A DNA stretch of 64,000 bases. Source: Clostridia bacterium. Its GTDB lineage: Bacteria; Bacillota; Clostridia; Monoglobales; Monoglobaceae. Numbering within the stretch: the stretch's first letter is position 1; each line of letters begins with the position of its first letter. A program made the translations under genes and the position numbers. The stretch is from the NCBI GenBank assembly GCA_017620615.1, contig JAGAUW010000008.1, forward strand, positions 1-64,000. Direction: 5' to 3'. Below the pieces are notes generated by a model. That model had not been told where the DNA came from. It ran no database searches and worked only from the letters and a program-made list of their open reading frames with translations. Below are positions 7,495 through 62,983 of the stretch, piece after piece.

Positions 7495-9423
7495 ATGTTT
7501 CTTCCCATATCAAAGGACGATATGAAAAAACGCAAAATCACACAGCTTGATTTTGTATATATAATAGGTGACGCATATGTAGACCATTCAAGCTTTGGTC
7601 ACGCCATTATCTCGCGCATTTTGGAGGCAAACGGTTTTTCGGTAGGGATTATTCCCCAACCTGACTGGCACAGTTCTGATGCATTCCGCGAGCTTGGGGA
7701 GCCACGGCTTGGTTTTCTTGTGTCCGGTGGAAATCTCGACCCAATGGTGAACCGCTATACTGTTTCAAAAAAAGTGCGGTCAGTTGACCTTTATTCCCCG
7801 GGCGGTGAAATAGGTAAACGTCCCGACAGAGCTACCATTGTTTATTGCAACCGCATTCGCGAGGCTTTTGGCAAAAAAATACCTATCATAATAGGTGGAA
7901 TAGAAGCAAGTCTCAGACGCTTTGCTCATTATGATTACTGGTCTGACAAAGTCCGTCGCAGTATTCTCATCGATAGCGGTGCAGACTTGCTCATCTATGG
8001 TATGGGCGAACATCAAATCGTTGAAATCGCAAATCTTCTTAAAATGGGGGTTCCTGTAAACGAAATAAAAAGTGTTCCGGGCACTGTATACATTGAAAAC
8101 TCAGATGGGGACTTCCCCGAAAATTATATTGAAATTCCATCTTTTGACGAAGTTTCACAGGACAAAAAACTTTACGCCAAGGCATCAAAAATTCAATACG
8201 AAGAACAAGATGCCTTTCGCGGAAGGGCCATAATTCAGTCAGACAATTCCGACAAATACATCGTTCAGCTTCCGCCGTCACCACCTCTTGGGACAGAGGA
8301 GCTTGATGCGGTTTATGAGCTTCCCTACGAGGGAACTTATCATCCAAGCTATGAAACTTTGGGCGGTGTTCCGGCAATTTCCGAAATAGAATTCAGTATA
8401 ACCTCCTCCCGTGGTTGTTTTGGAGCTTGCAATTTCTGCACTCTTGCCTTTCATCAGGGCAGAACGGTTGTTCCACGAAGCCACGAATCAATTTTGCGCG
8501 AGGCTGAAAAGCTGATCCAAAAACCCAATTTCAAGGGCTACATCCACGATGTCGGCGGTCCTACTGCAAATTTTCGTGCCCCATCATGCAAAAAGCAACT
8601 CAAATTCGGGGTATGCAAAGATAAGCAGTGTTTGTTCCCTACTCTCTGTAAAAACCTTGAGGTTTCGCACAGCGACTATCTTGAGCTTCTCAGGAAACTG
8701 CGGAAGCTTCCAAAGTTAAAAAAAGTCTTTATTCGTTCAGGAATACGCTTTGACTATCTTATGGCAGACAAAGACGAAAGCTTTTTCCACGAACTGTGCC
8801 GACACCATATAAGCGGTCAGCTGAGAGTTGCACCAGAACATATTTCTGATAACGTTTTGAGCTATATGGGAAAACCCTCATCTGATGTTTATGAAAAATT
8901 TCTCAAAAAATTTGAGAAAATAAATGCACAAAGCGGAAAGAAACAATATGTTGTTCCCTACCTTATGTCTTCACACCCGGGGAGCACACTCAAGGATGCA
9001 GTTAAGCTTGCGGAATACTTAAATCGCCACAAGCTCAGTCCGGAGCAGGTTCAGGATTTTTATCCCACACCCGGGAGTATATCCACCTGTATGTATTATA
9101 CCGGCATTGACCCAAGGACTATGAAACCAGTTTATGTGCCAAGGGACTACAATGAAAAACAAATGCAACGCGCACTGCTTCAGTATCGCGACGCAAAAAA
9201 TTATAAACTGGTGCTTAGTGCACTAAAGAAGGTAAACCGCCTTGACCTTGTGGGAAATTCTCCCCATTGTCTTATAAAACCACCAAAAGGAGAAAATCAA
9301 AATGGCAAAATTACTCAGCGGAAAAACAGTATCAGCAAGAATAAAGGAAAATTTGAAAAAGGAAATCGAAGAGCTGAAAACCGGAGGGATTCTTCCCGGT
9401 CTCGCCGTAATCATAGTAGGTGA
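7495..9423 (+). CDS. YgiQ-family radical SAM protein
   Basis: 642 residues. The N-terminal ~290 residues form a cobalamin-binding-like region. The radical SAM 4Fe-4S motif is in [20 protein letters not shown] near residue 305 (Cys-x3-Cys-x2-Cys). The conserved tail [22 protein letters not shown] and [19 protein letters not shown] is characteristic of YgiQ. The reaction of the family is not established. The last ~40 residues are Lys/Arg/Ser-rich and are read from DNA that also encodes the N-terminus of FolD: the two genes overlap by 122 bp in different frames. Basic disordered tails are common in YgiQ proteins, so the overlap may be genuine. Confidence 0.92.
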
Positions 9424-59885: not shown

Positions 59886-59917
59886 AAAAATAAGGCAAGG
59901 TTGAAACCAACCCTGCC
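59886..59917 (-). terminator. trpB terminator
   Basis: Minus-strand GGCAGGGTTG-GTTT-CAACCTTGCC (one G-U) followed by TTATTTTTG. Confidence 0.85.
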
Positions 59918-59924
59918 CGCTCTT

Positions 59925-61166
59925 TTAAATATTATAATCCAGCTTAAACTTTTCGCCACAGCCATAATTTTCATAAACGTAGTCAATATCTTTATCTCCA
60001 CGTCCTGAAAGACATACCAGAATTGAACCGCTTTTATGTTCCTTGGCATAACGGATAGCGTAAGCCACCGCGTGAGCACTTTCAATAGCCGGAATTATAC
60101 CCTCATATCTTGACAAAAGGAAAAATGCTTCCATAGCCTCTTCGTCAGATACTGTTTCATAATGCACTCTGCCTCTATCACGAAGATATGCGTGTTCGGG
60201 GCCTACACCCGGATAATCAAGTCCGCTGGCTATTGAATAAACCGGAAGGGGTTCGCCATTTTCATCCTGAAGAACATAGCTTGAGTAACCGTGAATGATA
60301 CCCTTTGTGCCATATGCCATCGTTGCCGCATGGTCACCAATACCTTCGCCTCTGCCAAGGGGCTCAACACCATATATCTCAACCGGATCAGCAAGGAATG
60401 GTGTGAACATACCCAGCGAGTTTGAACCACCGCCAACACAGGCTGTAACAGCATCAGGCATAATGCCTGTCATCTCCAGAAACTGTTCTCTTGCTTCTAT
60501 GCCAATAATAGACTGAAAATCCCTGACCATTTTGGGGAAAGGATGGGGACCTGCTGCAGTGCCTATACAGTATATTGCATCTTTATATTCCTTGAGATAG
60601 GCTTCAAATGCCGCGTCACAAGCTTCCTTAAGGGTTTTAAGACCTTTTGTTACAGGAACAACATTTGCACCCAGCATTTTCATTCTTATGACATTTGGAT
60701 GCTGTTTTTCAATATCAACCTCACCCATATAAACGTCACATTCCATACCAAAATAAGCCGCTGCAGTTGCTATTGCAACGCCGTGCTGACCTGCACCAGT
60801 TTCGGCAATTATCTTTTTCTTGCCCATAAACTTTGCTAAGAGACCCTCGCCCATACAGTGGTTGAGCTTGTGCGCCCCCGTGTGGTTTAAATCCTCTCTT
60901 TTTAAGTATATCTGGCAATTTCCAAAAATCTTAGAGAGACGCTCACAATGGTATACCGGAGTGGGTCTGCCCTGAAATTCCTTTCTTATTCTTCGAAGCT
61001 CGTTTATAAACTGTGCAGAATGACAAATAGCCTCATATGCATCATCAGCTTCCTTGAATGCTTCAATAAGCTCTTCCGCCTGATATGAGCCGCCATATTC
61101 GCCAAAAAACCCGTCCTGTGTGGGAAGCTCCTTTAAATAATTTTCAAAATCCTTATATTTATTCAT
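59925..61166 (-). CDS. trpB: Tryptophan synthase beta chain
   Basis: 413 residues, the TrpB1 length. PLP lysine in [20 protein letters not shown], then [31 protein letters not shown]-like [16 protein letters not shown] for the phosphate, and the C-terminal [10 protein letters not shown]. It joins indole and serine to form Trp. No trpA or other trp gene is nearby, so it may salvage indole or pair with TrpA from another locus. AAAAGGAG precedes the ATG. Upstream lies a leader peptide and terminator that look like a Trp attenuator. Confidence 0.95.
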
Positions 61167-61227
61167 AATAAAAACTCCTTTTCAAAAAAACATATTCAAT
61201 TCAAATCCCGCAGTTTAACTAACTGCC

Positions 61228-61258
61228 AAAAAACACGTTGGGCTTACGCCCAAATGTT
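61228..61258 (-). terminator. Attenuator terminator in the trpB leader
   Basis: Minus-strand hairpin TTGGGC-GTAA-GCCCAA, extended by AACAT/GTGTT around one bulged C, followed by six Ts (61233-61228). It overlaps the end of the leader peptide: Trp codon TGG is in the 5' arm and stop codon TAA is in the loop. Confidence 0.8.
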
Positions 61259-61300
61259 CCCTCCACTTTGATTCAAAATATATTTTTTTAAAAAAGTCAT
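61244..61300 (-). CDS. trpB leader peptide (18 aa, one Trp codon)
   Basis: MTFLKKYILNQSGGNIWA, ATG 61300 to TAA 61244. GGGAG lies eight bases before the ATG, and the predicted transcript start is only ~26 nt upstream, so this is the first translated frame. The single Trp is residue 17 of 18. The frame ends inside the terminator hairpin. A ribosome waiting at TGG for charged tRNA-Trp would cover the 5' arm and stop the hairpin forming, letting RNA polymerase reach trpB. The reading frame is short, so chance is possible, but the ribosome site, placement and target gene agree. Confidence 0.7.
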   Translation of the reverse strand: MTFLKKYILNQSGGNIWA

Positions 61301-61332
61301 AACTGTCACTCCCAAAAAATTTCTACCCAAAT

Positions 61333-61361
61333 AGTATATTACAATTTTTTCTGTTTGTCAA
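61333..61361 (-). promoter_or_regulatory. trpB promoter
   Basis: TTGACA (61361-61356), 17-nt spacer, TATACT (61338-61333) on the minus strand; start expected near 61326. Confidence 0.85.
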
Positions 61362-61404
61362 ATTATCTTTAATAAATTTTCTAACAATTATGTACCTTTT
61401 TCCC

Positions 61405-61433
61405 TTGACATCTACCTTTAAAGATAGTAAAAT
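61405..61433 (+). promoter_or_regulatory. Serine hydrolase promoter
   Basis: TTGACA (61405-61410), 17-nt spacer, TAAAAT (61428-61433), divergent from the trpB promoter. Confidence 0.8.
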
Positions 61434-61483
61434 TGTGGTATTAACATCAATTGCATTATGGCAAAAAGAAAGGTATGATTCAA

Positions 61484-62983
61484 ATGCTGGAAAAAGTTAC
61501 ACCTGAACAGGTGGGCATTTCATCCAAAAGTGTTAAAAAATACATAAAAATCTTAGAGAGAAATGAATTTTCTACTCATTCAATCGTTATGCTTAGGCAC
61601 GGTAAGGTTTTTTATGAAGCATACTGGGAGCCTTTTCACAAGGACTTCCTTCACAGAATATATTCATCAACCAAAAGCTTTGTGGCTCTTGCCATCGGCT
61701 TTCTCAAGCAAGACGGTCTCATCGACCTTGATGCGCCTGCTATTTCTTATCTTGATGAAGACATAACAAAAAATGCTTGTGATGAAGTCAAAAAACAGAC
61801 CATACGTGATATGCTGATTATGTCAACAGCGGGAATGTGTACGGTTGCAGGATTTTTCAAAGAGAAACCTGAAGACAGACTTCGTTACTATTATGACTGT
61901 GCAGGTCCTGACAGTTCTGCCAAACCAAAAGTTACAGGCTCTACCTTCATCTATGACAGTTCAGGCTCATTTGTTCTTGGTTGCATTGTTGAAATTATCA
62001 GCAGAATGAGCCTTATGGATTATCTTCGCGAAAAGCTTTTTGACAAAATCGGTTTTTCAAAAGACGCTTATTGTCTACAAAGTCCCGGCGGACACGCCTG
62101 GTCAGATTCAGGTATTCTCTGCCGTCCTATGGACCTTGCAAAGGTTCTTCAATTTCTGCTCAACGAAGGTGAGTGGAACGGCGAACAAATTCTTGACAAA
62201 CAGTTTATAAAAGAAGCAACCTCAAACCTTGTAAGCACAAAACGTGCCGCTCATCGCAGCGTGAATACATACGGCTATGGCTATCTTATATGGAGAACCC
62301 CCGGAAATGGTTATGGCTTCTTTGGTCTTGGAAATCAGTTGGCTCTCGCCTTCCCTGACTATGATATGGTCTTTGTGGTGACTGCCGACAACCAAACCAA
62401 TGCCACCATGGGTGAAAACGTTATGATTGACCGTCTTCTTGAAGAAATTGCCGAAACCGCAAAGGACGAAGCTTTAGCTGAAGACAAAGAGGCTTATCGC
62501 GACCTTATGGATTTCACCGAAAGTCTCAAGCTCTTCTCATTAAGTGGCAGTCTGAAAGAAAACATTGCAAACGAGGTAAGCGGCAAAACTTTCATTATGG
62601 AAGAAAACCCAATGGGTATTTCAAAAATGAAATTTACCTTTACCGATGATGTTTGCAAAATGGATTACACAAATGCACAGGGCGACAAAACCATTGAATT
62701 TGGTATTGATAAAAACGTCTTTGGCATCTTCCCTGAGGAAGGCTACTCCAACTTAGTGGGTAACACCTATGCACCCGGAAATTATTACAAATGTGCCGCA
62801 AGTGCCAACTGGACACACGAAAGAAACCTTGAAATTCTTGTTCAGGTTATTGACAAATATTTCGGAAAACTGTTTATCAAAGTTTTCTTCACAAAGGATA
62901 ACCGCATCGCGGTTTCTATGAACAAAACCGCTGAAAACTTTATGAATGAATATATGGGTTATGCACACAGCATTGCTGAATAA
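61484..62983 (+). CDS. Beta-lactamase-family serine hydrolase
   Basis: 499 residues from ATG 61484 (AAAGG about ten bases upstream); ATG 61475 and TTG 61451 are less well placed. The N-terminal ~330 residues are a class C beta-lactamase/DD-peptidase-like fold with the nucleophile motif YSSTKS (SxxK) and a YDSSGS Tyr motif, and GYGYLIWR before the third strand. The remaining ~170 residues are a separate C-terminal domain. No signal peptide or anchor is seen, so it is probably a cytosolic esterase or peptidase of unknown substrate, not a resistance enzyme. Confidence 0.85.
   Translation: MLEKVTPEQVGISSKSVKKYIKILERNEFSTHSIVMLRHGKVFYEAYWEPFHKDFLHRIYSSTKSFVALAIGFLKQDGLIDLDAPAISYLDEDITKNACDEVKKQTIRDMLIMSTAGMCTVAGFFKEKPEDRLRYYYDCAGPDSSAKPKVTGSTFIYDSSGSFVLGCIVEIISRMSLMDYLREKLFDKIGFSKDAYCLQSPGGHAWSDSGILCRPMDLAKVLQFLLNEGEWNGEQILDKQFIKEATSNLVSTKRAAHRSVNTYGYGYLIWRTPGNGYGFFGLGNQLALAFPDYDMVFVVTADNQTNATMGENVMIDRLLEEIAETAKDEALAEDKEAYRDLMDFTESLKLFSLSGSLKENIANEVSGKTFIMEENPMGISKMKFTFTDDVCKMDYTNAQGDKTIEFGIDKNVFGIFPEEGYSNLVGNTYAPGNYYKCAASANWTHERNLEILVQVIDKYFGKLFIKVFFTKDNRIAVSMNKTAENFMNEYMGYAHSIAE

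Follow-up and report, generated by a model that had tools for sequence, protein, structure and literature searches.

The 64,000-nt stretch of Clostridia bacterium DNA analysed here (the window) encodes on its minus strand a 413-aa stand-alone tryptophan synthase β subunit, TrpB (59925..61166; it scores 534 bits for TIGR00263, whose cut-off is 392). A terminator-like hairpin in the sequence 3′ of the gene (59893..59918, minus strand) suggests that trpB is probably monocistronic. The genes on both sides have no evident link to Trp; the divergent neighbour (61484-62980, plus strand) encodes a protein of the serine β-lactamase family with distant similarity to 3-succinylated cholic acid synthase, an assignment that we ruled out because its score of 169 bits falls below the curated threshold of 800. 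Searching 14 genomes, namely the source genome (82% complete) and 13 relatives (some of them incomplete; G066, G067 and G100 at least 95% complete), we did not find trpA, and the same search recovered it in 14 of 14 control genomes. TrpB alone joins indole and serine. Since trpA was not found, the enzyme probably makes Trp from scavenged indole, which, judging from gene content, is probably released by neighbours. Salvage of exogenous indole via Trp has been reported for Bifidobacterium species (PMC11085991).

An array of elements stands on the same strand 134 nt before trpB, comprising a consensus promoter, an 18-codon leader open reading frame, MTFLKKYILNQSGGNIWA, and an intrinsic terminator, all of which lie where the first-pass annotation had placed them. 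The promoter (61333..61361) is of the sigma-A type, TTGACA-N17-TATACT, and matches 11 of 12 consensus positions; its predicted transcript has a 5′ untranslated region of around 25 nt. A Shine-Dalgarno sequence, GGGAG (61309..61313), is separated by 8 nt from the leader ATG at 61300, and the leader frame, including its TAA, extends over 61244..61300. The frame runs into the terminator (61228..61258), which consists of a core stem (TTGGGC-GTAA-GCCCAA, 61253..61238) with a GUAA loop, a lower stem (AACA/UGUU) and a tail of six T residues (61233-61228). We confirmed two features of this overlap described in the first-pass annotation: the Trp codon W17 (TGG, 61252-61250) is within the 5′ arm of the terminator, and the leader stop codon (TAA, 61246-61244) provides three of the four bases of the loop. 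Directly 3′ of the U-tract lies a second hairpin (GCAGTT-AGTTA-AACTGC, 61210..61226). Codons 13-14 of the leader contain an invariant Shine-Dalgarno-like GGAGG (61260..61264), which, with W17 in the A site, is placed at close to Shine-Dalgarno distance from the P site and, we speculate, might prolong a pause there. An internal frame with a UUG start after this GGAGG, LGVSPTCFLAVS, was dropped as a candidate on account of an early stop in one of the further leader copies (L112).

The leader is present at four separate loci, which span two taxonomic families plus one contig: the window, L036 in the same genus, L100 in a genome belonging to a different family within the class, and L112 on a contig of the viral collection IMG/VR. 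Pattern searches found no fifth locus in 391 genomes of the class, 51 of the order, the genomes of the family or viral contigs. TrpB is 92-95% identical behind every further copy of the leader, and the flanking genes are unrelated. Pairwise comparison of the four loci yields a single homologous block, from around 12-60 nt before the leader ATG to approximately the end of trpB, which means that the leader and trpB travel, or are passed on, together. In the TrpB tree, the four leader-bearing rows lie inside one supported set of 20 and do not form a single clade; the tree does not settle whether the leader had a single origin. On the IMG/VR contig (L113:85-2290 and 7559-7600), an integrase and a repressor-like gene lie within a few kb of trpB, which may be in the host flank of a provirus. 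At another locus (L054), the sequence GGGAGTGACAG, identical to the ribosome-binding region of the window leader, is found immediately 5′ of the trpB ATG and a leader is absent, an arrangement that is possibly a natural deletion of the attenuator.

Across the four loci the leader peptide has the consensus MTFL[KR]KYI[LF]NQ[SWA]GGN[IT]WA*. The 57-nt frame contains zero indels, and 10 of its 57 columns are variable, six of them third positions, leaving four variable amino-acid columns and no internal stop. When the same nucleotide changes were placed randomly, equally few amino-acid changes without a stop arose in 0.27% of simulations; given this result and the lack of indels, the frame is conserved beyond chance. 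W17, A18, the UAA stop and the terminator hairpin are invariant at all four loci, as is GGAGTG in the Shine-Dalgarno region, so that the frame, the placement of TGG-GCG-TAA and the hairpin are all kept in the relatives, where the first-pass annotation had proposed to look for them. Three copies have one Trp codon, and L036 has two, separated, at positions 12 and 17.

The leader RNA is also conserved in structure. The full leader of the window folds with z = -5.2 relative to dinucleotide shuffles; the leaders of a different type found before related trpB genes (described below), used as a structure control, have a mean z of around 0 (n = 35). The RNAalifold consensus of the four leaders consists of three helices: the terminator, the second hairpin, which is kept at all four loci, and a long-range stem of roughly 26 pairs, which we denote P1. 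The 5′ strand of P1 (61268..61296, minus strand) comprises leader codons 2-11, and its 3′ strand (61176..61205, ends approximate) runs into the trpB Shine-Dalgarno sequence, AAAAGGAG. We compared P1 at each locus with 500 dinucleotide shuffles of its 3′ strand; an equally stable stem arose in 0, 0, 1 and 1 of them, and in 0 of 500 when the loci were summed. Since shuffles almost never match its stability, P1 reflects more than A+T richness. P1 and the second hairpin went unnoticed in the first-pass annotation, whose description of the attenuator as 'minimal' does not hold in view of a kept second hairpin and of codons 2-11 pairing with the trpB ribosome-binding region.

Over the three helices, 47 pairs are predicted and 95% of cells are paired in the four RNAs, compared with 37-57% when the partner strand is slid by 1-3 columns. 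In L112, two changes within codons are compensated (A-U to G-C and G-U to U-A). The covariation is modest, as expected from only four sequences, being equalled in 36-45 of 500 column shuffles; changed pairs are few, and the measures used for them are matched by 36-93 of 500 shuffles. So strongly folded and so thoroughly paired an RNA might itself be the sensor, its three helices binding a protein or ligand and the frame being a by-product. We regard this reading as improbable: an Rfam scan of the leader region returned chance matches only, with zero families near threshold, the frame is under coding constraint (about 0.003), and a gene for TRAP was not found in the source genome.

We modelled the effect of a translating ribosome by folding the four leader RNAs with the region from -15 to +15 around the P site blocked. 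In the free nascent RNA, the terminator core has a probability of 1.00 at all four loci. Placing W17 in the A site brings it down to 0.00 in every one of the four RNAs, whereas with codon 12 there it stays at 0.99-1.00. The folds contained no competing helix or antiterminator, in agreement with the first-pass proposal that none is needed, because a footprint at W17 by itself removes the terminator.

Taking the observed architecture, conservation, stem P1 and footprint geometry together, we interpret the element as a Trp attenuator, mediated by the ribosome, that controls a stand-alone trpB with a role in indole salvage, and put the probability of this reading at roughly 60%. We infer that Trp is the signal, that the ribosome stalls and that translation is affected as well. 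By default, the hairpin over codons 15-19 would form and transcription would end. When charged tRNA-Trp is short, a ribosome would wait with UGG codon 17 in the A site, covering the terminator from its 5′ arm through the loop to the beginning of the 3′ arm, and RNA polymerase would therefore read through; such direct blocking would make an antiterminator superfluous. When Trp is plentiful, the ribosome would reach the UAA in the loop and release, and the hairpin would form.

Masking by a stalled ribosome, the core of the first-pass proposal, is thus borne out in its geometry and qualified in its specificity: a ribosome whose A site holds the stop codon likewise gives a terminator probability of 0.00 in all four RNAs, so position alone does not discriminate for Trp. 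As the terminating ribosome masks the hairpin too, the difference between low and high Trp must come from ribosome dwell time, and Trp dependence would require fast release or RNA polymerase pausing. In Escherichia coli, translation leaves most of the efficiency of a terminator intact when it is located 30 bp downstream of a start codon, which is explained by the ribosome still lagging behind (PMC4824070); a putative pause that synchronises RNA polymerase with the ribosome is therefore expected here. Where only a small share of the codons is regulatory, attenuation has low sensitivity (PMC1183508), which predicts that a leader with a single Trp codon would respond weakly.

The equal masking by a ribosome at the stop codon also suits a different reading, in which the terminator would be masked, and the trpB region opened, by whatever ribosome occupies the leader; the element would then report general translation or the initiation rate, and the Trp codon would be incidental. 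E. coli ribosomes near stop codons do repress terminators (PMC4824070), and three of the four copies have a single Trp codon. However, W17 is invariant in all four and a second Trp codon is present in one copy, Trp is what the encoded enzyme produces, and the corresponding position before sibling genes is occupied by Trp sensors; we therefore consider this reading unlikely, if less so than the other alternatives.

For the Trp attenuator, P1 adds a possible second layer. In read-through transcripts, leader codons 2-11 would base-pair with the stretch that leads up to and into the trpB Shine-Dalgarno sequence, and P1 would be opened by ribosomes on the leader and otherwise closed, making it plausible, from the folding models, that leader occupancy also affects trpB translation. 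Blocking P1 with a queued ribosome, however, gave no clear rise in the predicted openness of the GGAG Shine-Dalgarno sequence, and the translational arm is accordingly no more than plausible. Tentatively, the single 57-nt frame might do three jobs, as Trp codon sensor, as 5′ arm of the terminator and as 5′ strand of a stem gating the trpB ribosome-binding region, so that a waiting and a queued ribosome would control transcription and translation without an antiterminator; we hold this fuller version to be possible rather than probable.

The conserved W-A-stop ending invites comparison with TnaC, an alternative raised in the first-pass annotation: free Trp would hold the ribosome at W-A-stop by nascent-peptide arrest and mask the terminator, so that trpB would be on at high Trp. 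The peptide is conserved outside the Trp codon (MTFL, KYI, NQ and GGN), and the stop codon lies in the terminator loop. Such regulation would nevertheless run the wrong way for an enzyme of synthesis; the Pro at the C-terminus of TnaC and its UGA stop are missing, all four copies ending in an invariant Ala-UAA; the terminator is intrinsic, not one of Rho-dependent control; and base pairing of codons 2-11 accounts for part of the peptide conservation. We judge arrest of this kind to have little chance of being correct.

The design has parallels in several known systems. Like E. coli trpL and the actinobacterial trp attenuators, the element has a short leader with a Trp codon and an intrinsic terminator between leader and trp gene, and it differs from them in that tandem Trp codons, an antiterminator and a separate pause hairpin were not found. 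In the Bacillus subtilis rtpA (anti-TRAP) leader peptide, Trp codons control access to the downstream ribosome-binding site. There, unlike here, it is a ribosome at the nearby stop codon that occludes, with three Trp codons and a T-box upstream. In E. coli pyrBI, a ribosome on the leader frame blocks the terminator directly, the UTP signal acting through RNA polymerase pausing. Direct masking, predicted here from the footprint geometry, would be common to pyrBI and the present leader, the signal being UTP there and, as we propose, charged tRNA-Trp here; the pausing at pyrBI is mentioned in PMC4824070. Leader codons also overlap terminators in actinobacterial ilvB leaders, where a frame of regulatory codons overlaps a candidate terminator hairpin with a U-run (PMC1262725); those leaders have runs of Leu, Ile and Val codons and belong to another phylum, whereas the present one has a single Trp codon, a stop codon in the loop and a stem to the ribosome-binding region. 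The leader-over-terminator design of ilvB and pyrBI, with W17 in the 5′ arm and UAA in the loop, is found at all four loci. Pairing of leader codons with the Shine-Dalgarno sequence of the structural gene occurs in the LEU element before actinobacterial leuA (PMC1262725), which in contrast forms a pseudoknot in which the regulatory Leu codons pair, no terminator over the stop codon being described. What appears new is the combination, for Trp and in Clostridia, of a leader-over-terminator with leader/Shine-Dalgarno pairing, as a form of ribosome-mediated attenuation whose mechanism we infer; we found no published description of this leader in the open-access literature.

As judged from its sequence, the leader is neither a T-box, a TRAP site nor TnaC. 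T-box searches gave zero matches at E up to 10 within 61000-61500, GAG/UAG repeats are absent from the window leader, and the TRAP gene (PF02081) was not found in the leader-bearing genomes G000 (the source genome, 82% complete), G003 (74% complete) and G067; these results support the first-pass reading. The source genome has four T-boxes, all elsewhere than trpB and none before trp genes; in our reading they precede a gene for a solute:sodium-type transporter, two AMP-ligase genes and pheS.

Other Trp sensors stand at the same position before close relatives of this trpB. We sorted the upstream regions of around 80 relatives by simple patterns, by which single loci may be misassigned: around 45 are T-box-like, six have a TRAP-like repeat (by-eye calls included), 38 have a different short Arg-Trp frame, and some, such as L050 and L048, have a plain promoter before trpB and lack a recognised leader. 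The TRAP gene occurs in exactly five of 14 genomes checked, namely those with a repeat leader before trpB (GAG/UAG repeats plus a terminator at L006, L008, L009, L010 and L012, in G005, G006, G001, G004 and G019), which makes TRAP control of a stand-alone trpB probable in these five gut Clostridia genomes. The use of other Trp sensors in the same position supports, indirectly, Trp as the signal for the present leader. The plain promoters of L050 and L048 would suit a fixed leader and terminator that merely lower basal expression with no regulation, a reading we consider very improbable given that frame, Trp codon, hairpin and long-range stem are conserved at four unrelated genomic sites.

The Arg-Trp frames form a group of their own. 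They often encode RWR and lie mostly 54-85 nt before trpB, at 38 loci among L032-L111 (for example, L105, L094, L064 and L108). Counted by that codon, Arg is CGA in all 38; other Arg-TGG hexamers near trpB amount to a handful, mostly the AGG-TGG of a T-box. The frame usually follows a T-box, seven lacking one by the pattern used, and at L098 it is apparently split by an insertion of around 200 bp between CGAT and ATGGCG. These sequences suggest a Trp leader peptide, so far undescribed, in which the dicodon CGA-UGG is fixed.

If our reading is true, the element before trpB would be a very compact Trp attenuator without an antiterminator, coupled to translation through pairing between the leader frame and the ribosome-binding region. 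Among near-identical members of this trpB family, T-box, TRAP and two types of leader peptide have replaced one another, and the family thus provides a natural series for how one sensor replaces another before the same enzyme.
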